A stretch of 48,005 bases of DNA from a virus: positions 1 through 48,005 of IMG/VR virus record IMGVR_UViG_3300036857_000362; one strand, written 5' to 3'. Shown here piece after piece: positions 1 to 48,005 of this stretch. Under the pieces are notes generated by a model. That model saw only the letters and a list, made by a program, of their open reading frames with translations. It made no database searches and was not told where the DNA came from. How positions within the stretch are numbered: position 1 is the first letter of the stretch; each line of letters starts with the position of its first letter. The position numbers were made by a program, and so were the translations under genes.

Positions 1-86
1 CAGCGCGCAATCTTGCTGCACGAAACGGAACAAGCGCGTACCGCCTTCGGGGCGGGATCGTGGCACCCGGACTAGGCAGCAACACA

Positions 87-159
87 CGACGCCCCGCTTC
101 GGCCAGGCGTCGTCGTCACCCACCGCCAACGGGGCGATGGCCGACCGAAAGGAACCTCT
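87..159 (+). promoter_or_regulatory. Hairpin start-associated leader, copy 1
   Basis: A 7-bp stem, CGACGCC (87-93) with GGCGTCG (106-112), runs into GTCGTC, a C-rich stretch and GAAAGGAAC at 147-155, just before a GTG start at 160. In the right-end copy the A105-to-G change extends the stem by one pair, so the hairpin is kept rather than eroded. Confidence 0.6.
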
Positions 160-270
160 GTGCTTCATCTGCTGCTCGACGCCGCGTTCGAGATCGTCAA
201 CGGCGACCCGCATCACCTGACCCACACGCTCCGCGTCCATGTCGAGCACCTTGTGCTCAGGCTCGCCTAG
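160..270 (+). CDS. 36-residue leucine/histidine-rich micro-protein
   Basis: A GTG start 6 nt after a GAAAGGAAC ribosome site opens a 36-codon frame beginning VLHLLLDAAFEIVNGD and ending in LVLRLA, with a TAG inside a perfect 16-bp palindrome. It has no recognisable family. An amphipathic helix is likely from the spacing of Leu, Val and His. The gene lies between two copies of the early-gene leader, like every other gene here, and is precisely missing from the right-end copy of this region, so it is dispensable in part of the population. It is short, so coding status rests on the leader and the deletion boundaries. Confidence 0.5.
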   Translation: MLHLLLDAAFEIVNGDPHHLTHTLRVHVEHLVLRLA

Positions 271-330
271 GCGAGCGTCGTCACCCTCCGCCATCGGGGC
301 GGACGGGGACACCCCACGATCGGAGACACC
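261..330 (+). promoter_or_regulatory. Hairpin start-associated leader, copy 2
   Basis: GCTCGCCTAGGCGAGC (261-276) is a perfect palindrome holding the TAG stop of the preceding micro-gene. It runs into GTCGTCACCC, a CCGCCATCGGGGCG element and GGAGACACC before the ATG at 331. CCGCCATCGGGGCG (288-301) is the right boundary of the 165-bp deletion seen at the other end. Confidence 0.65.
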
Positions 331-534
331 ATGTCCCGCAAGGACTACAACCTGATCGCCGCCTCGATCCGCGAGGCCCGCGACGATCGCAAGTGCGACG
401 AGCGCGACTCCTGGGGCATCGACATCGCCTCGACGCTCAGCCGCAACCTCGGCGATGAGAACCCGCGCTTCGACGGCCTGCGCTTCCTGCGCGCCTGCGG
501 CTTCTCCGACGACGTGATCGGCGGCCCCCGCTAG
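331..534 (+). CDS. Small conserved early phage protein (67 aa)
   Basis: ATG with GGAG 8 nt upstream. The protein starts MSRKDYNLIAASIREARDDR and is charged and probably helical, with a single Cys in the first half and one near the C-terminus. Proteins beginning this way recur as small hypothetical proteins in phages of high-GC and other hosts (from memory); their function is unknown. It is the first gene of the early block common to both genome ends. The partial right-end copy differs by Ile9Val. Confidence 0.85.
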   Translation: MSRKDYNLIAASIREARDDRKCDERDSWGIDIASTLSRNLGDENPRFDGLRFLRACGFSDDVIGGPR

Positions 535-542
535 ACCGCCTG

Positions 543-610
543 GCCCGAGCGTATCGGGCGTCGTCACTCCCGCCAACGGGGCGGGAGGGCACCCCACCGA
601 AGGGAGCACC
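543..610 (+). promoter_or_regulatory. Hairpin start-associated leader, copy 3
   Basis: There are two stems in tandem: GCCCGA (543-548) with TCGGGC (554-559), and TCCCGCC (568-574) with GGCGGGA (580-586). GTCGTCACTCCC lies between them, and GAAGGGAGC precedes the ATG at 611. Confidence 0.65.
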
Positions 611-841
611 ATGCCCGCCACCACCGTCACCCTGCTGAACCACGCCATCGTCGGCGGCTTCATCGCCAGCGTTCACCGCACCGGCTGCCGCGACATCGCA
701 CGCGAGAGCCTGGCACACGCCAGCAAGTCCTACGGCCCGTACGCGACCGCCTCTGACGCGATCGAGGACTACCTCGACGAGGAGATGCGGGAGATGGGCT
801 ACCACGAGGGCGACATCAAGGTTCACGCCTGCTGCCGCTGA
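611..841 (+). CDS. Hypothetical early protein (76 aa)
   Basis: ATG follows the leader with GAAGGGAG 6-7 nt upstream. The protein starts MPATTVTLLNHAIVGGF, has an acidic helical C-terminal half (DAIEDYLDEEMREMGY) and ends in HACCR with a Cys pair. No family was recognised. It is monocistronic in layout, since its own hairpin leader precedes it and another follows its stop. Its small size, acidity and early position fit a host-takeover protein, but that is inference. Confidence 0.75.
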   Translation: MPATTVTLLNHAIVGGFIASVHRTGCRDIARESLAHASKSYGPYATASDAIEDYLDEEMREMGYHEGDIKVHACCR

Positions 842-844
842 GAC

Positions 845-896
845 AGCGCCCCCTGACGGGGGCGCTCGTCGTCCATCCCCGAGCGAAAGGAACACC
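845..896 (+). promoter_or_regulatory. Hairpin start-associated leader, copy 4
   Basis: AGCGCCCCC (845-853), loop TGAC, GGGGGCGCT (858-866) form a 9-bp perfect stem. CGTCGTCCATCCCC and GCGAAAGGAACACC then lead to the ATG at 897. Confidence 0.7.
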
Positions 897-1106
897 ATGG
901 GCAAGAGGGTCACGTTGCAGTACGGCCGCGTCTGCGTCGACGTCGGCCCGGCCGTCGTGAACGGCCGCGAGGACGAGGGCGTGCGCCTGATGCGCGACGA
1001 GCGCACCGGCCACGTCTTCCGCGTCCTGGCACGGGTGGTCGACGCGAAGCCGGTCACGCTGCGGCGTGACAGCTTCCGCTGGCACCCGGACGAGTTGGCG
1101 GCCTAG
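897..1106 (+). CDS. Hypothetical early protein (69 aa)
   Basis: ATG at 897, AAAGGA 6 nt upstream. The protein begins MGKRVTLQYGRVCVDVGPAV and has alternating hydrophobic and charged residues that suggest a small beta-barrel. It ends DSFRWHPDELAA. The TAG stop (1104-1106) sits in a 12-bp palindrome, CGGCCTAGGCCG. No family was recognised. It is flanked by leader copies on both sides. Confidence 0.75.
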   Translation: MGKRVTLQYGRVCVDVGPAVVNGREDEGVRLMRDERTGHVFRVLARVVDAKPVTLRRDSFRWHPDELAA

Positions 1107-1145
1107 GCCGTCAGCCGTCGTCAACCCCCGAACGGAAGGCACACC
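1099..1145 (+). promoter_or_regulatory. Start-associated leader, copy 5 (stop codon in palindrome)
   Basis: CGGCCTAGGCCG (1099-1110) is a perfect palindrome containing the upstream TAG. CCGTCGTCAACCCCCGAACGG and GGAAGGC then precede the ATG at 1146. Confidence 0.6.
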
Positions 1146-1493
1146 ATGACCAAGACGTACAGCGAGCAGCGCGCGGCCATCTTCTTCAAGGCCGCCCGCG
1201 ACCTCCGCAAGGTCGCCTGCGAAGTCCTCGACGACGTCCAGACGGACGCCGAGTTCGCGAACCTGGACACGCTCAAGTGGGCGAAGGGCACGGCCGCGAA
1301 GATCTCGCAGGAGGCGAACGACCTGGAACTACAAGGGCACGACCTGGTGCAGGCGACGCCCCGCCAGGAGGCCGACCTGAGCCGCTCCCGCGCCCTGTAC
1401 CGGCGGGCGGTCGACGGGTTCCAGCACCGCGTGCTCGCCTCCGCCGGTGAGCCGAGGCTCGCCCAGATCAACGCGTACCGGCCGCTCGGCTGA
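1146..1493 (+). CDS. Helical hypothetical early protein (115 aa)
   Basis: ATG at 1146 after GGAAGGC. The sequence is rich in Lys, Arg, Glu and Ala, with no Pro until about residue 78, so it is probably an all-helical protein. It contains FFKAARDLRKVACEVLDDV near the N-terminus. No catalytic motif or known family was seen. It stands alone between two leader copies. Confidence 0.8.
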   Translation: MTKTYSEQRAAIFFKAARDLRKVACEVLDDVQTDAEFANLDTLKWAKGTAAKISQEANDLELQGHDLVQATPRQEADLSRSRALYRRAVDGFQHRVLASAGEPRLAQINAYRPLG

Positions 1494-1503
1494 ACGGCCA
1501 AGA

Positions 1504-1552
1504 CCCCGGCATCCCGCCGGGGCGTCGTACCCCCAACCTGAAAGGAGCTTCG
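1504..1552 (+). promoter_or_regulatory. Hairpin start-associated leader, copy 6
   Basis: CCCCGGC (1504-1510), loop ATCCC, GCCGGGG (1516-1522), then CGTCGTACCCCCAACC and TGAAAGGAGC before the ATG at 1553. Confidence 0.72.
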
Positions 1553-2191
1553 ATGCCACGCGTGCATACGAAGACGCGCAGCACCCGGGCAACCAAGCGC
1601 CCGTACCGCTGCACCGGCTGCGGCGAAGAGATCGTCGCGGGCGAGCGCTACTACGAGTGGGAGAAGCGCTACGGCGGCCCGCAGCGGCGCCACGTCGCCT
1701 GCGGCTACCCGCGGCCGACGCAACTGTCGAACCGCAAGACGGCCCAGATCGAGGAGGCCGTGCAGGACATGAGCCTGCCCTACGGCGAACTATCGATCGT
1801 CGTGGACGGCTGGGACGGCGCCACCGAGCAGTTCAACTCGGAGGCGGAAGGCTACGTAGCCGACCTGACGTCGGCGCTGGCGGACGTCGCCCAGGTTGTC
1901 CGCGACGTCGGCCAGGAGTACCAGGACAGCTTCGACAACCTGCCGGAGAACTTCCAGTACGGCTCGACCGGCGAGGCGTTGCAGACGATCGCCGAGGAGC
2001 TTGAGTCGAAGGCGGATGACCTGGAGTCGTGGGAGCCGTCGAGCACCGAGCCGGACTGGCCGGAGCGCGACGACGACGAGTCCCTGGAGGACTTCGCGTC
2101 GCGCGTCGAGCAGGCGTTCAGCGACTGGGCATCCGACGCCCAGTCGGAGGCTGAGGACGCGTGCTCGGACATGCCCGAGTACCAGGGCTAG
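1553..2191 (+). CDS. Zinc-finger protein with long acidic tail (212 aa)
   Basis: ATG at 1553, AAAGGAG 7 nt upstream. Residues about 17-55 hold YRCTGCGEEI and, after a basic/aromatic stretch, RRHVACGYP, a plausible Cys3His or Cys4 zinc site. Residues 60-212 are strongly acidic and probably helical (repeated D, E, S, with little Lys). A basic zinc head joined to a DNA-like acidic tail could be a DNA mimic or a nucleic-acid-binding adaptor; neither is demonstrated. Single-gene unit with its own leader. Confidence 0.82.
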   Translation: MPRVHTKTRSTRATKRPYRCTGCGEEIVAGERYYEWEKRYGGPQRRHVACGYPRPTQLSNRKTAQIEEAVQDMSLPYGELSIVVDGWDGATEQFNSEAEGYVADLTSALADVAQVVRDVGQEYQDSFDNLPENFQYGSTGEALQTIAEELESKADDLESWEPSSTEPDWPERDDDESLEDFASRVEQAFSDWASDAQSEAEDACSDMPEYQG

Positions 2192-2197
2192 CAGCAG

Positions 2198-2241
2198 GCC
2201 CGCCGTAAGGCGGGCGTCGTACCCCAACGAAAGGAATCCCG
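2198..2241 (+). promoter_or_regulatory. Hairpin start-associated leader, copy 7
   Basis: GCCCGCC (2198-2204), loop GTAA, GGCGGGC (2209-2215), followed directly by GTCGTACCCCAACG and AAAGGAATCCCG before the ATG at 2242. This is the most compact copy. Confidence 0.72.
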
Positions 2242-2514
2242 ATGGATCCCAAGTTCGACACCGAGGCCCGCCTGGAGCGGATCATCGAGGTGGGGCGGGT
2301 TCGCTCCGCGCTCCACGTCACGCCGACCGGCCACGTCGTCGGCGCCGTCTACCACTCCAGCTACTGGGGCGGCACCTACAAGGTGATCGCCCCCTACGGC
2401 GAGTACGGCGTGCTCGTCGAGTGCGTCACGCCCGGCGGCGGCGCCCACCAGACGCCCGGCGAGCGCTGGTCGCACATGACCCGCCTCGACCGCAGGGACA
2501 GGCGACTGTCCTGA
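2242..2514 (+). CDS. Small beta-rich early protein (90 aa)
   Basis: ATG at 2242. Residues 18-75 alternate small and aromatic residues (HVTPTGHVVGAVYHSSYWGG), which suggests an SH3-like barrel, and the C-terminus is basic (RLDRRDRRLS). The YWGG motif also occurs in the next gene (residues about 23-26), so the two may be distant paralogs. Function unknown. Confidence 0.8.
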   Translation: MDPKFDTEARLERIIEVGRVRSALHVTPTGHVVGAVYHSSYWGGTYKVIAPYGEYGVLVECVTPGGGAHQTPGERWSHMTRLDRRDRRLS

Positions 2515-2560
2515 ACGCCCTCCGGGGCGTCGTCTTACCCCACAACCGGAAGGAGGCGCC
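2514..2560 (+). promoter_or_regulatory. Hairpin start-associated leader, copy 8
   Basis: ACGCCC (2514-2519), loop TCCG, GGGCGT (2524-2529), overlapping the upstream stop codon. CGTCTTACCCC and GGAAGGAGG follow, then ATG at 2561. Confidence 0.68.
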
Positions 2561-3058
2561 ATGGGCGCCATCAAGATCAGCGTGACCCGGATCCGCAAAG
2601 GCGACCGGTTCACGAACGAATACTGGGGCGGCCGGACGGTCATCGCGACCACCGACGCCTACCGGCTCGACGGCACCGTCGACCCGGAGCACTACCACCC
2701 GACGAAGCCGAAGCCGTGCGTCGCCGAGTGCGAGCGCACCCCGGACGGCGTCTGGCGCCCGTCCTGGTGGCGCTGGGAGGTCGGCATCACCGACGGCAAC
2801 GGCGCCGGGGGCGGCTGGAGCGCACGCGAGGACGAGCGGATCGTCGTCGAGCGCGAGAAGATCGACCCGGCCGACTGGCTGGCCTCGACGCCGTCGCCGC
2901 GGGAGGCGTGCCGCCAGGCGCGCGAATGGCTGCTCGACCTGGAGTGGGAGGGCGAGTCCGACCGCGAGACGATCGAACTACTGAACCAGGTCGGCCTGGT
3001 GGCGGCGATCGAGCGCTACTACGACGGCGGCTGGGGCGAGTTCGTCCGCTCCATCTAG
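2561..3058 (+). CDS. Tryptophan-rich hypothetical early protein (165 aa)
   Basis: ATG at 2561 after AAGGAGG. The N-terminal part has GDRFTNEYWGGRTVIATTD and a Trp-rich beta region (WRPSWWRWEVG). The last 60 residues are acidic and helical (PREACRQAREWLLDLEWEG). No known family was recognised. The shared YWGG element links it to the preceding gene. A leader copy follows its TAG stop. Confidence 0.8.
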   Translation: MGAIKISVTRIRKGDRFTNEYWGGRTVIATTDAYRLDGTVDPEHYHPTKPKPCVAECERTPDGVWRPSWWRWEVGITDGNGAGGGWSAREDERIVVEREKIDPADWLASTPSPREACRQAREWLLDLEWEGESDRETIELLNQVGLVAAIERYYDGGWGEFVRSI

Positions 3059-3062
3059 CAGG

Positions 3063-3118
3063 CGCCCTCCGGGGCGTCGTCACCCCCTGCCCGATACGCG
3101 TGCGGTTCCGGCAGGGGG
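3063..3118 (+). terminator. Double hairpin upstream of the DUF932 gene
   Basis: CGCCC/GGGCG with a TCCG loop (3063-3076), then a 9-bp perfect stem CCCCCTGCC (3083-3091) with GGCAGGGGG (3110-3118). There is no T-tract, so it is either a GC-driven terminator or a processing hairpin. It lies upstream of the promoter-like element at 3135 and would insulate the next gene. Confidence 0.5.
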
Positions 3119-3134
3119 TGGCATCTGATCGCCC

Positions 3135-3143
3135 TGATACAAT
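3135..3143 (+). promoter_or_regulatory. Extended -10 promoter for the DUF932 gene
   Basis: TGATACAAT matches the extended -10 consensus TGnTATAAT with one mismatch. No convincing -35 lies 16-18 nt upstream, which is usual for extended -10 promoters. A start near 3150 would give a roughly 60-nt leader containing a 7-bp hairpin, GCCCTCC (3168-3174) with GGAGGGC (3179-3185), just before the ribosome site. Confidence 0.55.
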
Positions 3144-3209
3144 TGTGGGCGTGAAGCACAGTTGTCGGCCCTCCAAGTGGAGGGCACCCCAACCAGAAAG
3201 GAGCAGGAA

Positions 3210-4187
3210 ATGCCTGCTTTCTTCGATCAAGGCTTCTTCATCCGCGAGCCTGCGTGGCACGGCGAGGGCATCGTCCTCGACGACTACCCGGGACGCGAGG
3301 AGGCCCAGCGGCTCGCCGGTCACGACTTCACCGTGATCGAGCGGCCGATCCAAGTGGTCGGCAACCACTCGGCGCTGGACGCGCCCGCCTGGAAGGCGCT
3401 CGTCAAGAGCGGCTCCACCCAGGTGCTGAACATCACCCGCGACACCTACGAGGTGATCCAGAACGACACCGCGTACGACATCGCGGAACTGCTGTTCGAC
3501 CAGGGGTTCCAGTACGAGACTGGGATCACCATCTGCGACGGCGTCGGCTGCGCGCTGACGCTGAAGCTCGACGAGCCGATCGTGCTCCCCGGCGACGACT
3601 CGCCGGTCGCGCCGTTCGGCTGCCTGTCCTGGTGGCATGACGGCACGGGCGCCCTGCGCGTCCGCTCCGGCGCGATCCGCCAGGTGTGCGCGAACACCGT
3701 CTCCGCCAGCGAGGCGGAGGGCAAGCGGCTCGGCACCGACTTCACGTTCCGCCACACCAAGAACGTGAAGGCCCGCATCGAGGACGCGAAGGACGCCGTG
3801 AAGGGCGTGCGGCAGGACTTCGACGTGTACCGCAAGGCGATGCTGGAGTTGCAGGCGATCCAGGTGACGCCCGCCCAGCGCGACCTGTTCGTGTCCGAGA
3901 TCATCGGTGACCGCGGCGGCGTCGTGTCGCTGTCGGCGACCGTGTCCGACCGGGTGAAGGAGAACCTGGAGGAGGAGCGCACGAAGATCCTGTCGCTCTT
4001 CATGGGCAGCACGATCCCGGAGGCGCACGCGCTGACCGGGTACGGCCTGCACCTGGCCGGGGTCGAGTATTTCGACCACCTTCGCGCATACCGCTCGAAG
4101 GACAGCTACGTGAAGCGGACGCTGCTCCAGAGCAACCCCGCGAAGGCGTCCCTGACGAAGACGATCAAGCAGTTGGTCGCCGCGTAG
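3210..4187 (+). CDS. DUF932 family phage/plasmid protein (325 aa)
   Basis: ATG at 3210 follows AGAAAGGAGC by 6 nt; an in-frame TTG at 3162 lacks a ribosome site. The protein begins MPAFFDQGFFIREPAWHGEG, and the pattern of an early AWH, VIERP and TYEVIQN, then VCANT and an R-HT-N motif, is typical of DUF932 (TIGR03299), a family common in phages and plasmids with no settled function. About 325 residues is normal for the family. It has its own promoter and a structured 5' leader, unlike its neighbours, which suggests high or separately timed expression. Confidence 0.9.
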   Translation: MPAFFDQGFFIREPAWHGEGIVLDDYPGREEAQRLAGHDFTVIERPIQVVGNHSALDAPAWKALVKSGSTQVLNITRDTYEVIQNDTAYDIAELLFDQGFQYETGITICDGVGCALTLKLDEPIVLPGDDSPVAPFGCLSWWHDGTGALRVRSGAIRQVCANTVSASEAEGKRLGTDFTFRHTKNVKARIEDAKDAVKGVRQDFDVYRKAMLELQAIQVTPAQRDLFVSEIIGDRGGVVSLSATVSDRVKENLEEERTKILSLFMGSTIPEAHALTGYGLHLAGVEYFDHLRAYRSKDSYVKRTLLQSNPAKASLTKTIKQLVAA

Positions 4188-4199
4188 GACGCAGCAGAC

Positions 4200-4246
4200 G
4201 AGGGGGCTTCGGCCCCCTCCGTCGTCCCCCAACGAAAGGAGAAGTG
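4200..4246 (+). promoter_or_regulatory. Hairpin start-associated leader, copy 9
   Basis: GAGGGGGC (4200-4207), TTCG tetraloop, GCCCCCTC (4212-4219): a very stable UUCG-capped hairpin downstream of the DUF932 gene. It is followed by CGTCGTCCCCCAACG and AAAGGAG before the ATG at 4247. It could both end the upstream transcript and form the next leader. Confidence 0.72.
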
Positions 4247-4378
4247 ATGACCGTCCTGATCGTGATCGGCATCTGCGTCGCGATCACCGCAAAGGCCGTA
4301 TGGGACGACATCCGCGAGGATCGACGCATAGACGCCAAGCTCGCCGAGCTTGAACGCCTCTACCCGAGGAAGAAGTGA
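4247..4378 (+). CDS. Single-membrane-segment micro-protein (43 aa)
   Basis: ATG at 4247, AAAGGAG 6 nt upstream. The protein starts MTVLIVIGICVAITAKAVW, a hydrophobic helix of about 16 residues, and continues with a highly charged helix ending LYPRKK. A small inner-membrane protein facing the cytoplasm is likely. Its TGA shares one base with the ATG of the next gene (TGATG), so the two are translationally coupled. Confidence 0.72.
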   Translation: MTVLIVIGICVAITAKAVWDDIREDRRIDAKLAELERLYPRKK

Positions 4379-4575
4379 TGGAGCGGTTCACCATCCAACG
4401 CTGCCTCCAGGGCGGCCGCGCGATCGAGCAGTGGGCCGACGACACCGCCCGCGACATCGGCCGCGGCGACCTCGACACCGCGCTGGAGCGGCTCCGCCGC
4501 ATCGGCGACGAGGCGCGCGCAGTGAAGACCAACGCCGAAGTGGTTCAGCACCGGCTGCGGGACGTCCTCGACTGA
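4378..4575 (+). CDS. Helical hypothetical protein (65 aa)
   Basis: ATG at 4378 overlaps the preceding stop as TGATG; an upstream in-frame GTG at 4375 is less likely. The protein begins MERFTIQRCLQGGRAIEQW and is amphipathic and probably a two-helix hairpin. Its stop lies in the loop of a 9-bp stem (4561-4582). No family was recognised. Coupling to the membrane micro-protein suggests they act together. Confidence 0.72.
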   Translation: MERFTIQRCLQGGRAIEQWADDTARDIGRGDLDTALERLRRIGDEARAVKTNAEVVQHRLRDVLD

Positions 4576-4611
4576 GGGCGTCGTCAACCCCCAACCTGAA
4601 AGGAGTCAGCG
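4561..4611 (+). promoter_or_regulatory. Start-associated leader, copy 10 (stem includes coding end)
   Basis: GACGTCCTC (4561-4569) pairs with GAGGGCGTC (4574-4582) over 9 bp with one G-U. The last codons and TGA of the upstream gene form the stem and loop. GTCGTCAACCCCC and TGAAAGGAGTC then precede the ATG at 4612. Confidence 0.6.
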
Positions 4612-4920
4612 ATGGCTGACACAGACGAGCGCACCACCCTCGAACACGAGGGTGAGACGCTGGAGTACCGGCTCAAGTGCCTGAACTGCGGGCTGCACTA
4701 CAGCGTGTACTCGTGGGTGCGCTGGGCCGACAAGAACGAGCTTGGCGGCTTCTGCCCCGAGTGCGGCATCCGCGGCCACAAGCTCGTACACGGGCCGGTG
4801 ATCCGCAGCGAGTTCATCTTCCAACTCGTGCCCGGCGAGGCGGAACTGACCGCCATGACGCGGCCGGAGGACGTCTCGCCGTTCGGCCTCGGCAACATGA
4901 GCCTGCCCGAGGAGGAGTGA
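4612..4920 (+). CDS. Zinc-ribbon protein (102 aa)
   Basis: ATG at 4612, AAAGGAG 8 nt upstream. CLNCG (about residues 23-27) and CPECG (about 48-52) form a four-Cys zinc ribbon inside a beta-rich domain. The C-terminus is acidic (SLPEEE). It probably binds a nucleic acid or a protein partner; no family was named. The TGA overlaps the next ATG by one base (TGATG), and the GAGGAGGAG in its last codons acts as the ribosome site for that gene. Confidence 0.8.
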   Translation: MADTDERTTLEHEGETLEYRLKCLNCGLHYSVYSWVRWADKNELGGFCPECGIRGHKLVHGPVIRSEFIFQLVPGEAELTAMTRPEDVSPFGLGNMSLPEEE

Positions 4921-5900
4921 TGGCGACCGCAGCCGCACGCCAGGATTGGCGTGACGCCTACGACACGCAACTCGAACTGCTGCGCTGGGTTCGCTCCGAC
5001 ACGGGGCGGGCCTGGATGCAGCACGACGCCGCGCGCGTCGTACGCGAGTACGGGAAGCGGACGCAGTTCCTGATCCGCTCGATGTACGACATGGAGGAGG
5101 CGCGGCTGGAATCGGCGTCGCCGTACTTCGTGTCCGCGGACATGTGCAGCCTGGTCGAGGCGGCGGCGCCGAGCTTCGCGCCGGAGCCGATCTTCCCGAC
5201 CGACGTGCTCACCCTGAGCGGCTTCGTGTACTTCGCGAAGCCGCTCGTGATCCCTGACCGGTTCGACCGGCCGACCCGCTACCGGGCGTTCTCGTGGCAC
5301 CCGTGCATGACCGGCGACTTCGACCCGGGACGGGTACTGACCCGTGACGACGAGTTCCGCGAGTACCTGGAGGAGCGCCACCAGCGCGGCCACCAGGACG
5401 GGCTGTCCCTGTGCCTGTACCAGGCGGAGCCGGACGAGTGGCCGGAAGGGCTGCTGCGGCCGCCGGTGCTGGCCGCCCATGTCACGCCGTGGTGGTGGGG
5501 CATGAGCTTCGAAGGGAACGAGGTCACCGAGGCGGGCCGCCCGACCGGGGCGTCGCACTGGTGGGCGGTCGTGCAGACGACGCTGCGGCTGATGCAGCAG
5601 AAGATCAGCGTCCACCATCAGGAGCGGCCGGACAGGGCGGCACGCCGGTTCGCGAAGCGGCTCGACCTCATCGACCGCGGCGTGACCGTGGTGACGCTGC
5701 GCCGGGAGCGGACGCCGGAGCACGGCGAGCCGGTGGAGGAGCACCACTACTCGCACCGGTTCATCGTCGGCGGCCACTGGCGCAACCAGTGGTACCCGTC
5801 GGCGGGCGTTCACCGGCAGATCTGGATCGCCCCGTACGAGAAGGGGCCGCAGGATGCCCCGTTGATCATCAAGCCGCGCGTCTACCGATGGACGCGCTGA
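4920..5900 (+). CDS. Conserved hypothetical protein (326 aa)
   Basis: ATG at 4920 is coupled to the upstream stop (TGATG) and preceded by GAGGAGGAG. Residues 1-90 are helical. Residues 95-326 form a beta-rich, Trp/His-rich domain with HPCMTGDF, TPWWWGMSF and a basic end. The tail region HYSHRFIVGGHWRNQW and RQIWIAPYEKGP is a pattern I remember from many actinobacterial and actinophage hypothetical proteins. Conserved His and Trp hint at an enzyme or nucleic-acid binder, but none is established. A short AAAGGAGC leader links it to the next gene. Confidence 0.85.
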   Translation: MATAAARQDWRDAYDTQLELLRWVRSDTGRAWMQHDAARVVREYGKRTQFLIRSMYDMEEARLESASPYFVSADMCSLVEAAAPSFAPEPIFPTDVLTLSGFVYFAKPLVIPDRFDRPTRYRAFSWHPCMTGDFDPGRVLTRDDEFREYLEERHQRGHQDGLSLCLYQAEPDEWPEGLLRPPVLAAHVTPWWWGMSFEGNEVTEAGRPTGASHWWAVVQTTLRLMQQKISVHHQERPDRAARRFAKRLDLIDRGVTVVTLRRERTPEHGEPVEEHHYSHRFIVGGHWRNQWYPSAGVHRQIWIAPYEKGPQDAPLIIKPRVYRWTR

Positions 5901-5911
5901 AAGGAGCAGTG

Positions 5912-6211
5912 ATGGAAGACCAGACCACAGAGGTCAGGAAGTTCAACCACAAGGAGCGCGGCCATCTGATGACGCTCCAGCGCCGCCTCGACTACCTGCG
6001 CGAAGAGGGCAGCCGCGACAGGAGCGAAGGGGCGCTCGGCTTCATCGCCGGTGAGGCGAACGCGCTCGCCTGGGTGCTGTCGCTTCTCACCAACCACGAC
6101 GAGATGACGCCGGAGGCGATCCGCATGGAACGGATCGAGCACGCGCAGCGGACGATCTTCAGCCGCCTCGGACGGCTGGAGGCGCTGATGGAGACACCGT
6201 TCGATGAGTGA
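5912..6211 (+). CDS. Helical hypothetical protein (99 aa)
   Basis: ATG at 5912 follows AAAGGAGC by 6 nt. The sequence has a central heptad-like segment (ERGHLMTLQRRLDYLREEG) and a second helix (RMERIEHAQRTIFSRLGRLE), so it is a likely coiled-coil or helical-bundle dimer. No family was recognised. Its last 8 nt overlap the start of the next gene. Confidence 0.75.
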   Translation: MEDQTTEVRKFNHKERGHLMTLQRRLDYLREEGSRDRSEGALGFIAGEANALAWVLSLLTNHDEMTPEAIRMERIEHAQRTIFSRLGRLEALMETPFDE

Positions 6212-6350
6212 CCCGTTCGACAACTTCGAGGAGCGCGACGAGCGCCGGGAAGACCAGGCGGTCGAGACGGGTGATCTGTCCACCTACCCGGACGAGGCGT
6301 GGATCGGCTGGCCCGAGCCGGAACTACCCGCCAACAACGAAGGGAGGTGA
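6204..6350 (+). CDS. Acidic micro-protein (48 aa)
   Basis: ATG at 6204 lies inside the end of the upstream gene (8-nt overlap). The peptide starts MSDPFDNFEERDERREDQAV and is rich in Asp and Glu, with a short Trp/Pro C-terminal half (AWIGWPEPELP). A DNA-mimic or adaptor role is possible but unproven. It is followed by a 104-nt leader with two hairpins. Confidence 0.6.
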   Translation: MSDPFDNFEERDERREDQAVETGDLSTYPDEAWIGWPEPELPANNEGR

Positions 6351-6366
6351 TGGCGCCAGAGCCGAC

Positions 6367-6454
6367 GCACCTGCGTGCAGGTGCAACAGCGACAGAGCAC
6401 GGGGGCCGCCAACCCACGGCGGCCCCCCGTTGTCCCCCAACAGGAAGGAGCCTC
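6367..6454 (+). promoter_or_regulatory. Double-hairpin leader, copy 11
   Basis: GCACCTG (6367-6373), CGTG loop, CAGGTGC (6378-6384) is followed by GGGGGCCGCC (6401-6410) with GGCGGCCCCC (6418-6427), a 10-bp stem. GTTGTCCCCCAACAGG and AAGGAGC then precede the ATG at 6455. It is the longest early leader apart from that of the DUF932 gene. The core reads GTTGTC instead of GTCGTC. Confidence 0.65.
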
Positions 6455-6745
6455 ATGTCAGCCGAATGGCTTGACAGGTCGCAGTTCCACGAGGTCGCCG
6501 AGGCGATCAAGATCTCGACCGACCAGGTGATCAGCGTCGCACCGGCGCTGCTCGTCACCTATTCGGCCGGGTTCAGCCCGGACGATCGCGTGTTCGCTGC
6601 CACGCTCTCCCGCAATCCCGCCGACGGCGTGTTCGCGGTGCTGACCCGGCGCGTGCTCTGCACGGTCGGCGAGTGGGAGCGCGACATGCGCCAGTCGCTC
6701 GACGAACTACTCGGCGAGCCGCTGGAGGACGACGACGATGCCTGA
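6455..6745 (+). CDS. Hypothetical protein (96 aa)
   Basis: ATG at 6455, GGAAGGAGC 6 nt upstream; an in-frame ATG at 6350 would read through the double hairpin and is unlikely. The protein starts MSAEWLDRSQFHEVAEAIK, has a mixed alpha/beta middle and ends in an acidic run (LEDDDDA). No family was recognised. Its end overlaps the next start by 8 nt. Confidence 0.75.
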   Translation: MSAEWLDRSQFHEVAEAIKISTDQVISVAPALLVTYSAGFSPDDRVFAATLSRNPADGVFAVLTRRVLCTVGEWERDMRQSLDELLGEPLEDDDDA

Positions 6746-6977
6746 CCGTTTCGGGTTCACCTGGCCGTTCCGGGACGGTACGATCGTGTGCCTGACCTGC
6801 AACGAGCGCATGCTCGGCGCGTCCGAGAGCGTGCGGGAGCGCCACTTCCGCCAGCACGTCAAGGACGCCGAGCAGGCCCGCCGCAAGCAGCAGGCGGCAC
6901 AGCTACGCGAGGCGCGACGCCTGAAGGCGATGGCGGAGCGGGAGAACCGAACACTGGAGGAGCGCGGCCTGTACTGA
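6738..6977 (+). CDS. C2H2-type zinc-finger protein (79 aa)
   Basis: ATG at 6738 overlaps the upstream gene. Residues about 18-42 read CLTC, then 14 residues, then HFRQH: a C-x2-C-x14-H-x3-H arrangement like classical C2H2 fingers. The remainder is a basic helix rich in Arg, Lys, Gln and Ala. This looks like a small DNA- or RNA-binding protein. Translation is probably coupled to the preceding gene. Confidence 0.75.
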   Translation: MPDRFGFTWPFRDGTIVCLTCNERMLGASESVRERHFRQHVKDAEQARRKQQAAQLREARRLKAMAERENRTLEERGLY

Positions 6978-7002
6978 CCAGTCCCGACCGCGCCCCACCG
7001 AT

Positions 7003-7050
7003 GCCCCCGCGAGGGGGCGTCGTAACCCCCACCCGAACGGAAGGAGCATC
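7003..7050 (+). promoter_or_regulatory. Hairpin start-associated leader, copy 12
   Basis: GCCCCC (7003-7008), loop GCGA, GGGGGC (7013-7018), extendable to 8 bp, then GTCGTAACCCCCACCCGAACGG and AAGGAGCATC before the ATG at 7051. It is the last member of the family in this direction. Confidence 0.72.
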
Positions 7051-7275
7051 ATGGCACTGGTAGGCGTATCCGAGATCCACGAGCGCTTCGGGATCGACCG
7101 GATGCAGATCTCGCGACTGGTCAGAGCGGGCGACTTCCCGCCGCCGCTGGAAACGCTGTCGGCCGGGCGCATCTGGGATCTGACCGAGGTGCAGGAGGCG
7201 ATAGCCCGGCTGCGCCGGGAGCGTCGCGTCACGAAGGACGGCCGGATCATCCCGCGCCGGTTCATTGCAGCGTGA
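7051..7275 (+). CDS. Excisionase/AlpA-like HTH DNA-binding protein (74 aa)
   Basis: ATG at 7051 with AAGGAG 7 nt upstream. VGVSEIHERFGIDRMQISRL (residues 4-23) is a winged helix-turn-helix of the MerR/AlpA/excisionase type. GDFPPPLETLSAGRIWDL then forms the wing, where this family usually has FP.P...GR.W. Length is normal. No integrase was found in the window, so it is more likely a transcription regulator, perhaps of the divergent region just downstream, than a recombination directionality factor. Confidence 0.82.
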   Translation: MALVGVSEIHERFGIDRMQISRLVRAGDFPPPLETLSAGRIWDLTEVQEAIARLRRERRVTKDGRIIPRRFIAA

Positions 7276-7289
7276 GGAGTCTCTCTCCC

Positions 7290-7334
7290 CGTGGCCCCCG
7301 GGGGCGGTCGCTGTGCCGCCCCTAGGGGGCCACG
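7290..7334. terminator. Bidirectional terminator between convergent genes
   Basis: CGTGGCCCCC (7290-7299) pairs perfectly with GGGGGCCACG (7325-7334), and inside it GGGGCGG (7301-7307) pairs with CCGCCCC (7316-7322). The 17-bp composite stem sits between the stop of the rightward HTH gene and the stop of the leftward gene. There is no T-tract on either side. Confidence 0.75.
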
Positions 7335-8400: not shown

Positions 8401-9668
8401 TGGACGCCCCTCCGAACTGGGGCGGCTTCCAGCAGTCACCGAACGGAAAGCTCGAAAGCTTCGACGGCTTCGCCCCGATCCAACCGAAGTTCGTAGAACG
8501 ACCGCTGCTCCAGGCGGGAACGTTCCACCTGCTCGCCGGGCGCCCCTCAGTCGGCAAAGGCGCCCTGTGCGCCCGCTGGCTCGCCCGCTGCACGAACGGG
8601 AGCCTGTACGGGGAGCCGCGCAGAGGATTCTGGCTGTCGAGCGAGGAGGATCCGAGCATGGATCTCCGGCCCCGGCTCGACGTCGCCGGAGCCGACCCGC
8701 ACGAGGTCATCCAGATCCCGAACAGCTTCCAGCTACCCAGAGACATCCCCTGGCTGAAAGACGCGATCGGCCGGATCGGGAACGTGGGGCTGGTGGTGCT
8801 CGACCCGCTCGCCAACCACATCGGCGGCACCAACTCGAACGCCGACGAGGAGGTGCGCGCGATACTCCAACCGCTCGCCGAGCTAGCCGGGACGCTGAAC
8901 ATCCCGATCGTCGGCGTCCGCCACGTCTCGACGAAGGAGGCGCGCGGCGCGTTCCTGGCGCGCGTGCTCGGCTCGACGGCCTGGATCGGCGTGCCGCGCG
9001 TCGTGCTCGGCGCGGCCAAGGACGCCGAGGGGGACGTCCATGTGCGCGCGATCAAGGGGAACCGCGTCCGGGACGAGGACGCCGGGGTGCGGTTCGAGTT
9101 GCAGGGCATGCCATACCTGGACTGGGACGAGACGGTGGTGGCCGCGGTCGAATCCGGCGAGTCGCTCGTAGACATCGACGGGCTGCTCGCGTACGAGAAG
9201 GAGAAGACCCCTCCCGGCCTGAAGCGGAAGACGCTGGCGACGCTCGTGCGGGTGCTGCGCGAGCATGGCGGCGAGATGGAGTCGGACGCGCTGCACACCG
9301 AGGTGGCGCTGCGGGTGGGCCTGAAGGCGTCGACCGTGAAGGACTACCGCTTCGAGCTTGTGAAGTGGGGGTGGGTTGTGGCGTTCCCGGAGCGCGACAG
9401 CGTGATCAAGAAGTGGAAGGTGCGCCTCGCGAACTCCGCCCCGTACAACCACGATCTCGAAGCCGCCATCGAGAACGCCCTCGCGCGCGCGCGCGCGCGG
9501 GAAGACACCCCTACTACCTCTCTTGCTGAAATCTACTCAGATGTGAGTCTGAGTGACTCAAGAGAGGTAGAGGAGGTGTCTACGCGCGCGCGCGAGGACG
9601 AAGCAGTGCTCGACATGCTCACGCTCGACTTCGCCCCCAACCCCATCGACCGACAGGAGGACGAATGA
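8400..9668 (+). CDS. RepA-like replicative ATPase/helicase, AAA_25 type (422 aa)
   Basis: ATG at 8400 is coupled to the upstream TGA. Residues 44-53 read AGRPSVGKGA, a Walker A loop with Gly in place of the usual Ser/Thr after Lys. SSEEDP (about 80) and LVVLDPL (about 130) match the sensor and Walker B strands of RecA-fold RepA/AAA_25 proteins. Residues 265-345 look like a winged helix. The family contains plasmid and phage hexameric helicases and replication initiators. The last 60 codons contain a large inverted repeat, and the protein there is low-complexity (LARARARED). With no phage polymerase present, this is probably the main replication protein. Confidence 0.85.
   Translation: MDAPPNWGGFQQSPNGKLESFDGFAPIQPKFVERPLLQAGTFHLLAGRPSVGKGALCARWLARCTNGSLYGEPRRGFWLSSEEDPSMDLRPRLDVAGADPHEVIQIPNSFQLPRDIPWLKDAIGRIGNVGLVVLDPLANHIGGTNSNADEEVRAILQPLAELAGTLNIPIVGVRHVSTKEARGAFLARVLGSTAWIGVPRVVLGAAKDAEGDVHVRAIKGNRVRDEDAGVRFELQGMPYLDWDETVVAAVESGESLVDIDGLLAYEKEKTPPGLKRKTLATLVRVLREHGGEMESDALHTEVALRVGLKASTVKDYRFELVKWGWVVAFPERDSVIKKWKVRLANSAPYNHDLEAAIENALARARAREDTPTTSLAEIYSDVSLSDSREVEEVSTRAREDEAVLDMLTLDFAPNPIDRQEDE
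9482..9594. repeat. Large inverted repeat inside the ATPase gene; replication-origin candidate
   Basis: The left arm holds (CG)9 at 9482-9499, GACACC (9504-9509) and TACCTCTCTTG (9515-9525). The right arm holds the complements CAAGAGAGGTA (9559-9569), GGTGTC (9575-9580) and (CG)6 at 9583-9594. The loop is AT-richer and carries four TGAGT/ACTCA pentamers (9535, 9544, 9550, 9556), including the palindrome TGAGTGACTCA (9550-9560). The arrangement of cruciform arms, iteron-like pentamers and a position inside the initiator gene resembles lambda-type origins inside gene O. Confidence 0.6.
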
Positions 9669-11373: not shown

Positions 11374-11576
11374 CCTCGATCTGGGTGGTTGTTCGTTCGC
11401 GCCGGGACAAGCGGACGATCCGCGGCTGGTGGACGGTCGACGTCGAGTTGTTCAAGACCCGGGACGAGGCGTTCGACCGGGCCGACGCGCTTCGCGAGTC
11501 GAGGCCGAAGGACTGGGTGGACGTCCAGCAGGCGGACTCGAAGGACTGGGTGGAAGTTCAGCGGGCGGCCTCGTGA
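11370..11576 (+). CDS. Small protein with a C-terminal tandem repeat (68 aa)
   Basis: ATG at 11370 overlaps the previous stop (ATGA). A basic beta-strand N-terminus (MTSIWVVVRSRRDKRTIRGW) is followed by two near-identical 11-residue units, KDWVDVQQADS and KDWVEVQRAAS. The repeat suggests recent duplication at the DNA level. Its stop TGA (11574-11576) is the first codon of an 11-bp direct repeat that flanks the HNH insertion. Confidence 0.75.
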   Translation: MTSIWVVVRSRRDKRTIRGWWTVDVELFKTRDEAFDRADALRESRPKDWVDVQQADSKDWVEVQRAAS

Positions 11577-11970
11577 GCGGCTTCACCGCGCTCAGAGATG
11601 CGCTGTGCTCGATCGAGGGCGAATGCTGGATCTGGAAAGGCCCGTACACGGGCGCCTACCCGCGCCTGACATTGAGCGGGGGCGATCCCGCCTATGTTCA
11701 CCGGCTGGTCTACGAGGCGGCGAAAGGGTCGATCCCGGAATGGCACGACATCCACCACGCCTGCGAGAACAAGGGCTGCGTAAACCCGGCACATCTTGTC
11801 GCCCTGACGCGACAGATTCACGCATCGCAACACCCGGGCACGCAGACGTATTGCCGTCGCGGACACCCCTTCACCGCCGAGAACAGCTATCTCAGTGGCG
11901 GTCGCCGCTGGTGCCGTCAGTGCAAACGCGAACGCGACCGGAAATACAGGGCGGCAGCATGAGCGGCTTC
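11563..11970. mobile_element. HNH insertion unit with direct repeats
   Basis: GGGCGGC-nnnn-TGAGCGGCTTC occurs at 11563-11584 and again at 11949-11970, 386 bp apart; 19 of 22 positions match, and the last 11 are identical. The interval holds only the HNH gene. The repeat recreates the start of the downstream nuclease gene, so the insertion would be silent. Confidence 0.6.
11573..11962 (+). CDS. HNH endonuclease, probable inserted homing-type gene (129 aa)
   Basis: GTG at 11573 (GTGA overlap). The protein has EGECWIWKG, then IHHACENKGCVNPAHLVALT (the HNH core: His-His, Asn, His with two structural Cys) and a C-terminal knuckle, CRRGHPFTAEN with CRQCKRERDRKYR. This is the HNH_3 layout common in free-standing phage homing endonucleases. 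The gene is bracketed by a 22-bp near-repeat (11563-11584 and 11949-11970), and both it and the next gene start with the codons for SGF, indicating insertion at the start of the downstream nuclease gene. Confidence 0.88.
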   Translation: MSGFTALRDALCSIEGECWIWKGPYTGAYPRLTLSGGDPAYVHRLVYEAAKGSIPEWHDIHHACENKGCVNPAHLVALTRQIHASQHPGTQTYCRRGHPFTAENSYLSGGRRWCRQCKRERDRKYRAAA

Positions 11971-12936
11971 GTTCTTCCTCCGCCCCCGCCCGAATTCAAA
12001 GTAATTCATCCGGCGAAATCCGAAGCATGGCTCGACGGATATATCGATCATTTCTCTGCAAGCAGCCTGCGAATGCTGAAGGTTTGTCCTGAACAATACC
12101 GTCAAAGATATATCCTCGGCCGCAAGGAGCGTCCCGGCGAGGCGCTCGTGCTCGGCTCCGCCGTCCACTCCGCGGTCGGGTTCAACCTGACCCAGAAGAT
12201 CGACTCGCACGAGGACTTGCCGTCAGCCGAGGTGGTCAGCTACTTCAACGACCACGCCTGGCCGGTCGCGGTCGAGCGCGACGGCGGCGAGGACGAGATC
12301 CGCTGGGACTCGAAGCCGGACACTGTCCGCTCCGACGGGGAACGCGTCACGGTCGGCTACCACGCTGTCGTCTGCCCGACGATCCAGCCGCTCGCGGTCG
12401 AGCGCCGCCTCGACTTCGTCGTCCCCGGCGTCCCCGTCCCGTTCATCGGCTACATCGACTTCGAGGAGCTAACCCACCAGGTCGACCTGAAGACGGGCAA
12501 GCAGGTGCAGCGGAAGCCGGACGCGAACTGGCGCTTCCAGGGAACGATCTACGCGGCATTCACCGGCAAGCCGACCCACTTCCATTCGATCTCGCGTGCG
12601 AAGACGCCGTCGATCGCGACCCCGCTGGACGCGCCGGAGATGGTCGTGTCGCCGCACTCCACCCAGGTGGCCGTCGTGGAACGGGTGCTCCGCGATTACG
12701 CCGCCCAGGTGGAGTGGTACTTCAACCGGTACGGGCCTGATGAGCCGTGGCCGACGAGCGGCCTGTACATGGACTACAAGGGCGGGGCGGCGTGCGGCTT
12801 CTGCGGCTACCGGAAATGGTGTGTCGCCTGGGAGCACGAGCGGGCGGTCGACACCGGCCTGCCCGACATTGACGGCAGCCCGATCGAGTGGCTGCCGCCC
12901 GTCCCGACAAACTTCAAGCCGGAGGAGACATCGTGA
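11959..12936 (+). CDS. Cas4-like PD-(D/E)XK nuclease with Fe-S cysteines (325 aa)
   Basis: ATG at 11959, overlapping the HNH stop. The nuclease core is visible as IGYIDFEE followed by HQVDLKTGK (about residues 155-180: D...DLK), with a downstream Gln-Tyr-type helix (FQGTIYAAFTG). Cys43 (LKVCPEQYR) plus CGFCGYRKWC (about 278-287) form the four-Cys Fe-S cluster typical of Cas4/AddB-type exonucleases. The role is probably DNA end-processing or recombination in replication. The first 50 codons use AAA, ATT, TAT, CAT and AGA far more than the rest, consistent with a foreign co-conversion tract next to the HNH gene. Confidence 0.88.
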   Translation: MSGFVLPPPPPEFKVIHPAKSEAWLDGYIDHFSASSLRMLKVCPEQYRQRYILGRKERPGEALVLGSAVHSAVGFNLTQKIDSHEDLPSAEVVSYFNDHAWPVAVERDGGEDEIRWDSKPDTVRSDGERVTVGYHAVVCPTIQPLAVERRLDFVVPGVPVPFIGYIDFEELTHQVDLKTGKQVQRKPDANWRFQGTIYAAFTGKPTHFHSISRAKTPSIATPLDAPEMVVSPHSTQVAVVERVLRDYAAQVEWYFNRYGPDEPWPTSGLYMDYKGGAACGFCGYRKWCVAWEHERAVDTGLPDIDGSPIEWLPPVPTNFKPEETS

Positions 12937-28582: not shown

Positions 28583-29637
28583 GACACACGCGCCGGATAG
28601 ATCTGGCAGACCATGTTCGCCAACTGCGAGATACTCTGGTTCGCCCATACCGCCGGTTGCAACGCCTGCCCTGCGCCGATACCGGTGATCTTCTGGTGGA
28701 ACATCGCGGACATGTTCGAGTTGGCGACCTGGGTCGGTGTCATCGCCTGCTGTACTCCGACCGCCGCGCCGCCGACACCCGCCCCCATCTGCATAAGGGT
28801 GTTGGTCTGATTCGAGTTGAATTGGGCGCTCCAGTTGATCCAGTAGTCGCCCGCTCGCGGAACGGCCAGCCCCGGATTCGCGACCACCCAGTTCGAGCTA
28901 CCGGAGAACTGCTGCCAGGTGCCGACGTAGGCGGTCGCGAACCACGGGTTACCGCCGATGTACTCCCACTTGTACGCCGACGAGGATCCAGCGTTGTAGC
29001 GGAAGCGCCACTGGTAGGACGGATTGGTCAGCGAGTCCACGAGGATCGCCTCCTGCCCGTCAGCCGGGGACGCGGGCAGGCTCGTGCCGTAGCTGGGCGT
29101 GCCCGGGCCTGCCGGGCCTTGCATCCCGCCCACGAGCGCCATCGCAAGCTCGCACGCGTGCTGACTGGTACCCGCATCGCTGACGTTCGTGTTCAGGGCC
29201 GCGCCGCTGTCCTGGTAGGCCGCGATCTCGATGTAATCACCGACAGCGAGTTGCACCAGCGTCGGCGTGTTCGCCATTGGGTAGCCGCCAGTGGCCGGGA
29301 TCGTGATCCCCTGTATGCCGCCGGTCGCGATGTAGTTCCCGTTCTTCCAGATGGCGGCCGCCCTGGTCGCGCCGCCTGTGGACGGGACGAACTGCACCGC
29401 GCCCCAGACCGCGTAAGTGCCCGCGACCTGGCAGGTGAGCCGTGTCGGCTGGCCCGCTGCCCACTGTCCACCATTGTCGTAGCGGACGGTGCTGAACTGG
29501 ATCGGCGTCCAGGTGGTGTTCGGGATCGACTGCGCCGTCGCGCGGTACACGCGCGTCGAAGGGTTGGCTGGCGGGACAACACCGCCGGTCGGCCAGATCG
29601 GCACCCAGTCGACGGCTGCGGGATCGGGAACGCTCAC
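28579..29637 (-). CDS. Tail fibre paralog A (352 aa)
   Basis: GTG at 29637 overlaps the previous stop (GTGA). It begins VSVPDPAAVDWVPIWPTGG, then has a C1q-like beta domain (residues about 40-170, with GTYAVWGAVQFVPS), a 48-residue shared module (YGTSLPASPADGQEAILVDS, then NPSYQWRFRYNAGSSSAYKW) and a second beta-sandwich tip ending QIYPARVS. The same module occurs in the next two fibre genes. Structural tail tip, probably receptor-binding. Confidence 0.82.
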   Translation of the reverse strand: MSVPDPAAVDWVPIWPTGGVVPPANPSTRVYRATAQSIPNTTWTPIQFSTVRYDNGGQWAAGQPTRLTCQVAGTYAVWGAVQFVPSTGGATRAAAIWKNGNYIATGGIQGITIPATGGYPMANTPTLVQLAVGDYIEIAAYQDSGAALNTNVSDAGTSQHACELAMALVGGMQGPAGPGTPSYGTSLPASPADGQEAILVDSLTNPSYQWRFRYNAGSSSAYKWEYIGGNPWFATAYVGTWQQFSGSSNWVVANPGLAVPRAGDYWINWSAQFNSNQTNTLMQMGAGVGGAAVGVQQAMTPTQVANSNMSAMFHQKITGIGAGQALQPAVWANQSISQLANMVCQIYPARVS

Positions 29638-30326
29638 GACACCCGCACCGGCAGGATCGACATCGTGCGGGAGCCGAACACCGACAGCGCCGACGAGCAG
29701 TAGAAGGCGTTCTGCACCTGCTGACCTGCGGTGTACGTGTAGAACCGCTGAAGAAAGACGAACCCCTCGGACGTGCTTGTCACCCACGTTCCCATTCGGT
29801 CAGATGGGCTAAAGCCCATGTATTGCCCGCTATTGACCGCCGCCCCGACTTGCGTGTATGCCTCGGCGACGTAGTAGCCCGCCCGAGGAACAGTGATCGT
29901 CGCGCCTGCCGCCGCGTCGGTGTAGTACGCCCCGGTGGCGGGCGGCGTGTAGTTAGCGGGGAAGATGACGAGCCGCGAACCGCCGACGAACTCCCACTTG
30001 TACGCCGACGTGGACTGCGCGTTGTAACGAAACCGCCACTGATACGACGGGTTCGTCACGCTGTCGACCAGCACCGCCTCCTGCCCGTCGTACGGCGACG
30101 CCGGGAGTGTCGTCCCGTAGGCGGACGTGCCCGGTGCCATCGGCCAGACGGCGGGCGGGTTCTGCGTCGGCCTGACGCACATGTAGGCGACGCCGTTGTA
30201 GACGACGATGTCGCCGTCGGCGTACTGTGTCGCGGCCGCGTACGCGCCGCGGTACTGCATCCCTGATGCGCCATTCAGGTTCCAGAGCGGCACCCACGGC
30301 GTCGTCGCAGGATTCGGAGTGCTCAT
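29634..30326 (-). CDS. Tail fibre paralog B (230 aa)
   Basis: ATG at 30326 overlaps the stop of the 722-residue fibre (ATGA). It starts MSTPNPATTPWVPLWNLNG. Residues 28-65 (QYADGDIVVYNGVAYMC, then PPAVWP) resemble a CBM5/12 carbohydrate-binding strand pair. The shared module follows (YGTTLPASPYDGQEAVLVDS, NPSYQWRFRYNAQSTSAYKW), then a beta tip ending MSILPVRVS. It lacks the collagen shaft of its larger paralog, so it may form a short fibre or bind another fibre. Confidence 0.82.
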   Translation of the reverse strand: MSTPNPATTPWVPLWNLNGASGMQYRGAYAAATQYADGDIVVYNGVAYMCVRPTQNPPAVWPMAPGTSAYGTTLPASPYDGQEAVLVDSVTNPSYQWRFRYNAQSTSAYKWEFVGGSRLVIFPANYTPPATGAYYTDAAAGATITVPRAGYYVAEAYTQVGAAVNSGQYMGFSPSDRMGTWVTSTSEGFVFLQRFYTYTAGQQVQNAFYCSSALSVFGSRTMSILPVRVS

Positions 30327-47173: not shown

Positions 47174-47863
47174 CCGCCCAGCCTAAAAGTTTCGGCCGCA
47201 AATTGCGAACTTTTCCGTTCCCGGGTACGAGCGTTCCCCTTGCGACGGCCGTGCTCTGTAGGCACAGTGGGATCGCACTCGCCAACCACGCGGATCTGGA
47301 GCCACCAGGCTCCCCCGGCTCCCTCATATCCCGGAGCTTCATGTACCCGCCGAAGTCCCGAGTACGCGGCAGGCCCGATCGGTTGATCGCGGAAGCCGTC
47401 CTACGAGCCAGCCTCCGTCATGAGGCCCGCATGCAGTCCGGTGCGGGATCCCACCCTCAGGCGTCGATGAGAGCCACCCGGGCCGTCAGTGTCCGGGAGA
47501 GAGACTCCACATTGATTCAACCTGTGAGGACTGGCTTGACCTGAAGACCGCGACAGCGGGACGCGCTTCGGCGCGTCGAGTGCGCCCGTCCGAGCTTTCA
47601 CAGGTGGGGAGATAAGGCGCCGTCCGCGGCGCCGAAGACACTCGAAACGGAGGCAGTACGCGCCGCCTTCACCAAGCTCCGGCCGGATGCGGCCGGGGCA
47701 GCGCGCAATCTTGCTGCACGAAACGGAACAAGCGCGTACCGCCTTCGGGGCGGGATCGTGGCACCCGGACTAGGCAGCAACACACGACGCCCCGCTTCGG
47801 CCGGGCGTCGTCGTCACCCACCGCCAACGGGGCGGACGGGGGCACCCCACGATCGGAGACACC
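47174..47863. promoter_or_regulatory. About 690-nt non-coding divergent control region with hairpins
   Basis: It lies between leftward and rightward early genes. Contents: a nested AT-rich inverted repeat at 47185-47214; GGAGCC/GGCTCC (47298-47313); a UUCG-capped stem GACGCGC/GCGCGTC (47560-47577); GGCGCC/GGCGCC (47616-47633); CCGGCC/GGCCGG (47679-47696); and the terminal-repeat leader from 47699. A rightward open frame at 47203-47544 has no ribosome site and an unnatural composition. Promoters for both directions should lie here, but none has a clear -35/-10 pair. Confidence 0.6.
47185..47214. promoter_or_regulatory. Nested AT-rich inverted repeat, operator or leftward promoter site
   Basis: AAAAGTT (47185-47191) pairs with AACTTTT (47208-47214), and inside it CGCAAATTGCG (47197-47207) is an 11-bp palindrome. 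It lies 12-41 nt upstream of the leftward GTG at 47173 and is the most AT-rich stretch of the region, so it is a likely regulator-binding or promoter site for the leftward genes. Confidence 0.5.
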
Positions 47864-48005
47864 ATGTCCCGCAAGGACTACAACCTGGTCGCCGCCTCGA
47901 TCCGCGAGGCCCGCGACGATCGCAAGTGCGACGAGCGCGACTCCTGGGGCATCGACATCGCCTCGACGCTCAGCCGCAACCTCGGCGATGAGAACCCGCG
48001 CTTCG
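47699..48005. repeat. Right copy of the terminal repeat, with 165-bp deletion
   Basis: Matches 1-472 from the first base, except that bases equivalent to 137-301 are missing. The junction lies in CCGCCAnCGGGGCG, which is present twice (123-136 and 288-301) in the left copy and once here, exactly as expected for deletion by recombination between short direct repeats. The lost segment holds the 36-residue gene and one leader. Confidence 0.9.
47864..48005 (+). CDS. Partial second copy of the 67-aa early gene
   Basis: ATG at 47864 with GGAGACACC upstream. The first 47 codons match the gene at 331-534 apart from Ile9Val; the window ends before its stop. It is the same gene seen across the contig junction, preceded here by only one leader because of the 165-bp deletion. 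Confidence 0.88.
   Translation, partial: MSRKDYNLVAASIREARDDRKCDERDSWGIDIASTLSRNLGDENPRF

Follow-up and report, generated by a model that had tools for sequence, protein, structure and literature searches.

Both ends of the uncultured phage contig analyzed here carry the same locus, in two versions of different length. Do these versions represent two alleles of one place in a genome whose ends join, and are the leaders repeated between the small early genes of this locus the seams at which such genes are gained, lost or moved?

Two versions of one locus at the contig ends

Self-BLAST of the window, that is, the whole stretch of DNA analyzed (one IMG/VR virus record of 48,005 bp; features in Table 1), revealed that its right end repeats its left end minus 165 bp: positions 1-136 match 47699-47834 with one mismatch, and positions 276-472 match 47809-48005 with four mismatches. 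This bears out the sequence-only reading, which had taken the two ends for alleles of one locus 165 bp apart in length. Letter-by-letter comparison of the end copies placed their differences at 105 (A/G), 287 (T/A), 294 (T/A), 309 (A/G) and 355 (A/G). Positions 287 and 294 lie within a direct repeat; the other three lie outside it, indicating that the end copies come from different haplotypes and that the right end is not plainly the left end minus 165 bp.

Table 1. Coordinates of the features discussed, in window numbering
Feature	Position	Strand	Basis
Allele A: locus at the left end, 165-bp unit present	1..472	+	self-BLAST and letter-by-letter comparison
Allele B: same locus at the right end, 165-bp unit absent	47699..48005	+	self-BLAST and letter-by-letter comparison
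26-bp direct repeat, leader 1 (CGTCGTCACCCACCGCCAACGGGGCG)	111..136	+	repeat comparison
26-bp direct repeat, leader 2, 24/26 identical to leader 1; holds the right-allele junction at 295-301	276..301	+	
165-bp unit, left end only: ribosome site, 36-codon gene (inferred), hairpin, leader	137..301	+	end-copy comparison
ORF of 36 codons within the unit (MLHLLLDAAFEIVNGDPHHLTHTLRVHVEHLVLRLA), without a family match	160..270	+	
67-aa gene past the junction, in both end copies (right end: from 47864)	331..534	+	weak similarities
Small early genes in an array bounded by leaders, located at 108, 276, 559, 867, 1116, 1523, 2215, 2528, 3075, 4220, 4579, 7018	108..7053	+	
DUF932 gene, array landmark, common to G003, G005 and G010	3210..4187	+	
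RecE/Cas4-type PD-(D/E)XK exonuclease, candidate recombination function	11389..12936	+	
Conserved structured RNA at the array head	47512..47710	+	covariation
Stretch of 75 bp for which G001 has 3 bp (third arrangement)	47708..47782	+	

The element CCGCCA[A/T]CGGGGCG, proposed earlier as the breakpoint, occurs at 123-136 and 288-301 as claimed and does contain the breakpoint; the true direct repeat extends further, over 26 bp (leaders 1 and 2), and the best match to this 26-mer elsewhere in the window reaches 19/26. At 287 and 294, where the two repeats differ, the right allele reads as leader 1, so that the junction falls within the 7 bp at 295-301 (CGGGGCG). The indel amounts to exactly one repeat period, with both of its ends in leaders.

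Within the 165-bp unit, the 36-codon ORF has a GTG start with GAAAGGA just 5' of it and a coding-like base periodicity (GC1/2/3 of 0.81/0.24/0.86), and a hairpin spans its stop codon. As a family search returned no known relative, we can only infer that this ORF is a gene; a search of IMG/VR with the DNA of the 165-bp cassette gave no match. When the unit is missing, leader 1 abuts the ribosome site of the 67-aa gene, the visible coding sequence of which is the same in both alleles except for one residue (I to V). The 67-aa protein had no match in IMG/VR and is weakly similar to gp44 of Mycobacterium phage Predator and, by pairwise comparison alone (E 1e-4), to one of the unit genes in the related uncultured phage G005. 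Megablast and distant blastn of the window against 50,697 phage genomes retrieved no DNA relatives.

The proposal that the ends join, the genome being circular or terminally redundant, is upheld by related phages. The syntenic relative G003 shares the gene order of the window (terminase 71%, portal 71% and DUF932 77% identical), and its ends overlap exactly over 127 bp, so that it closes as a circle. In addition, the G003 homologue of the right-arm gene at 45887-46543 lies ∼4 kb before the G003 DUF932 gene, as expected if the window ends are joined. The locus is internal to the contig in G005, G009 and G010; with G003, four relatives thus rule out a physical genome end at this place. Given the same locus at both ends, the best explanation is that the contig spans a single turn of a phage genome that is circular or circularly permuted. 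Formally, the contig alone would also allow a diverged terminal duplication, in which a single linear genome carries the locus twice instead of two alleles of one place. We regard this as exceedingly improbable, because the relatives have one copy, internal to the contig, because G003 closes as a circle, and because the match extends exactly to both contig ends, as an overlap would give.

A second IMG/VR contig, G001, is identical to window positions 18,997-47,707 (28,711 bp, with only two mismatches, near the other end of G001) and carries the right-end letter at position 105. It departs from the window at 47,708, where 3 bp take the place of 75 bp, after which the first hairpin resumes and the contig stops. 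The left side of this difference is not in a leader; it begins at the end of the conserved head RNA described below. With three arrangements on what is otherwise one genotype, the spot is polymorphic, and the five SNPs and the indel between the ends, together with the third arrangement on an identical backbone, support the earlier suggestion that a mixed population was sampled. Mis-assembly of one end, through a collapsed repeat or a chimeric path, would mean that the 165-bp difference exists in no virus; it would fit a difference situated between two similar repeats, where assemblers err, and at contig ends. We nevertheless consider such an artefact unlikely, since the SNPs at 105, 309 and 355 distinguish the copies outside the repeats, and since G001 independently has the right-end letter at 105 and also breaks at this locus.

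Leaders, hairpins and a structured RNA in the early array

The window contains 12 leaders of the CGTCGTC type, alignment of which yields CGTCGT followed by C or A and then a C-rich stretch before the ribosome site. Units in the array are laid out as gene, hairpin, short leader (CGTCGTC..ACCCC.. in the window), ribosome site and next gene, and a looser leader pattern occurs 14 times in the window versus 2.8 times in shuffles. A sister form of the leader, CGTCAGTCAACCCC, is present in 10-19 copies in each of four related uncultured phages (G003, G005, G009 and G010), and the relatives' CGTCAGTC(AACCCC) follows the coding strand of the early array in nearly all of its copies. In G003, the leaders are confined to this array and to one strand: the 16 copies of CGTCAGTCA all lie on the plus strand between 6.6 and 12.7 kb, with none on the other strand, and matches to the leader plus ribosome-site pattern number 14, compared with a mean of 0.23 in shuffles. 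In most units the hairpin abuts the leader, and the median stem score is ∼2-fold that of random positions in each of the five genomes; the sequence of these hairpins varies from unit to unit and their pairing is kept.

Within window positions 1-7300, a scan covering the sigma-70-like type only detected no promoter, and neither a plus-strand T-tailed terminator nor an enrichment of T-tailed terminators was found, indicating that the leader units are not ordinary terminators or promoters. A role of the leader itself as an intrinsic terminator was ruled out by its lack of T-runs. A search of 84,980 bacterial and archaeal genomes for the extended leader gave no exact match, and the leader is therefore not a common host signal; other DUF932 phages (L009, L011, L012 and L013) are without such a leader. 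The position of the leader points to an expression signal, which could act in mRNA processing, in the translation start of each small gene or in regulator binding.

Two departures from the common layout were observed. Leader pairs that are spaced by 70-130 bp and enclose no ORF, but often a long hairpin, occur in L008 (7690-7763, 5582-5707 and 9341-9414) and L010 (9543-9619); these could be either units from which the gene has gone or another type of structured spacer. At 3075-3135 of the window, a very stable hairpin (13-bp stem, z-score -5) comes after the leader that precedes DUF932, unlike in the other units.

Directly before the array, all five phages share a structured RNA of ∼180 nt (L018:6416-6591, L036:5469-5652 on the minus strand, L031:13142-13327 and L032:16844-17011, besides the window copy). 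Changes on both sides were seen in 16 of its 32 pairs, none of 500 shuffles was as good, and the covariation signal collapses on sliding. A model made from this RNA matches every array-bearing genome, namely the five used to build it and G001, and gave no match in four other DUF932-bearing contigs (L009, L011, L012 and L013). The head RNA had no Rfam match, and a search of the window for tRNAs and Rfam families found none. Its position suggests a 5' leader or regulatory RNA, and it ends where G001 begins to differ.

Gene turnover between leaders and its possible route

We compared the arrays of the window, G003, G005, G009 and G010, which together hold ∼54 small genes besides DUF932. Almost every small gene enclosed by leaders changes from one phage to the next; DUF932 aside, only about six families occur in any two of the five arrays: window gene 1553 has a homologue in G009, genes 4612 and 4920 in G005, and gene 7051 in G003, G005 and G010, one further family is common to G005 and G009, and the 67-aa gene is weakly matched in G005. 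Shared genes also change places. The order in the window is DUF932, 4612, 4920 and 7051, and in G005 DUF932 is followed by the 7051 homologue and then by the 4612 and 4920 homologues; similarly, the 67-aa gene lies before DUF932 in the window and its candidate G005 homologue after it. The DUF932 proteins of the array-bearing relatives are 51-77% identical to that of the window at the amino acid level, which is too distant for base-level breakpoints. As a pattern across genomes, turnover together with reordering is what an exchange of leader-bounded units would be expected to leave.

We consider it somewhat probable that the end copies represent the start of the early array in two haplotypes, and that units of this array are added, dropped or moved by recombination between leaders. 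In this model, leaders repeated in direct orientation would serve as short stretches of homology as well as expression signals, and whole units would be added, dropped or moved when leaders that are neighbours or of foreign origin recombine; single-strand annealing or template switching in the course of phage replication is the most likely route. Because the leader would be both the repeat and, by its position, the expression signal, each leader-to-leader event would always leave a working leader before the next gene, which would still be expressed. The 165-bp difference would be one such unit exchange, with the 26-bp tandem direct repeats as substrate and the exact 7-bp core at the junction. 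In favour of such a route, the phage encodes the RecE/Cas4-type exonuclease listed in Table 1; no annealing protein was recognized next to it.

The claim that leaders are recombination points is supported in part: both breakpoints of the indel lie in leaders, and the leaders persist in five phages whose intervening genes turn over and reorder. Counting against it, a single indel has a resolved junction, and the 75-bp variant of G001 does not fit on its left side, which lies outside a leader. The single mapped event also lends weight to ordinary strain divergence, in which a one-off indel arose between short direct repeats by replication slippage and the leaders are expression signals only. Slippage is commonplace between 26-bp repeats 165 bp apart, and phages, whether or not they possess such leaders, usually show a high turnover of their small early genes. 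We hold this alternative to be the less likely one, though a serious contender, as it sits poorly with three arrangements at this spot on a backbone identical to G001 over 28.7 kb, and with a leader frame that persists in five phages while genes change and reorder.

A site-specific, integron-like capture of cassettes at leaders by a recombinase would account for units composed of a gene and a hairpin-bearing boundary, and for an array with a fixed structured head. The attC/attI core GTTRRRY is, however, missing at the junction, there being no GTT in either repeat (111-136 and 276-301), the junction is a 7-bp identity inside longer homology, and no IntI-type tyrosine recombinase was found among the proteins scanned, a subset of the ORFs. 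Such capture is therefore very improbable.

Beyond the exchange of units between leaders, a further-reaching reading is that this uncultured soil phage lineage possesses a dedicated gene-capture platform, composed of a conserved structured head RNA and a row of small early genes that each have a standard leader, and that whole units are actively exchanged at the start of this row within one population; we put this forward as a rather doubtful possibility. Gain and loss of small early genes in phages have mostly been inferred from distant comparisons. In the present case, viruses of a single population differ by the size of one unit at a repeat that occupies the place of an expression signal, and four relatives show the same architecture. 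Should leaders indeed act as exchange points, read counts for each unit would give a direct measure of gene gain and loss in nature, and such arrays could be found by their leader sequence.

Relation to known repeat systems and further features of the window

In proposed effect, the closest counterparts are the promoter early stem-loops (PeSLs) of T4-type phages (Arbiol 2010 and Comeau 2014, as cited in PMC4503421), which are described there as composite elements with a hairpin that recur between small early genes and through which related phages are proposed to shuffle genes. Of the shuffling at elements, we observed turnover and changed order between arrays and one mapped indel. Compared with PeSLs as summarized in that source, window positions 1-7300 lack a sigma-70-like promoter, in contrast to the PeSL early promoter; the hairpins lack the T-tail of a terminator, in contrast to the PeSL stem-loop terminator; and the elements, ordered here as hairpin, leader and ribosome site, belong to another phage lineage.

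In anatomy, the leaders come closest to the SAS/ESAS of cluster K mycobacteriophages, a short asymmetric repeat present in 11-19 copies, in one orientation, just upstream of start codons of non-structural genes only, about half of them with an upstream inverted repeat, for which a role in translation initiation, not gene exchange, has been proposed (PMC3203893). Departures in the ESAS inverted repeats do not support RNA pairing (PMC3203893), whereas the hairpins reported here vary in sequence and keep their pairing. Like SAS, the leaders are one-directional, found in non-structural genes and next to start codons; their sequence is unrelated, and the 13-bp SAS GGGATAGGAGCCC has no match in the window with up to two mismatches allowed. 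The leader arrays would work like PeSLs and resemble SAS/ESAS, and are members of neither, since the defining features examined (promoter and T-tailed terminator for PeSLs, sequence for SAS) are lacking; the likeness in how they would work stands.

Many short asymmetric intergenic sites in one orientation are also characteristic of the stoperators of cluster A mycobacteriophages, which are DNA sites bound by a repressor. The leaders share this arrangement, but no repressor or lysogeny gene was recognized here among the proteins scanned.

Two further repeat features lie outside the array. An imperfect inverted repeat with (CG)n runs is located at 9490-9594, in the 3' part of the AAA_25 (RepA-like) gene. 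The structural-gene region contains three direct repeats of ∼150 bp (28951-29109, 29979-30138 and 30690-30836), which are 77-80% identical and probably represent a repeated protein domain.
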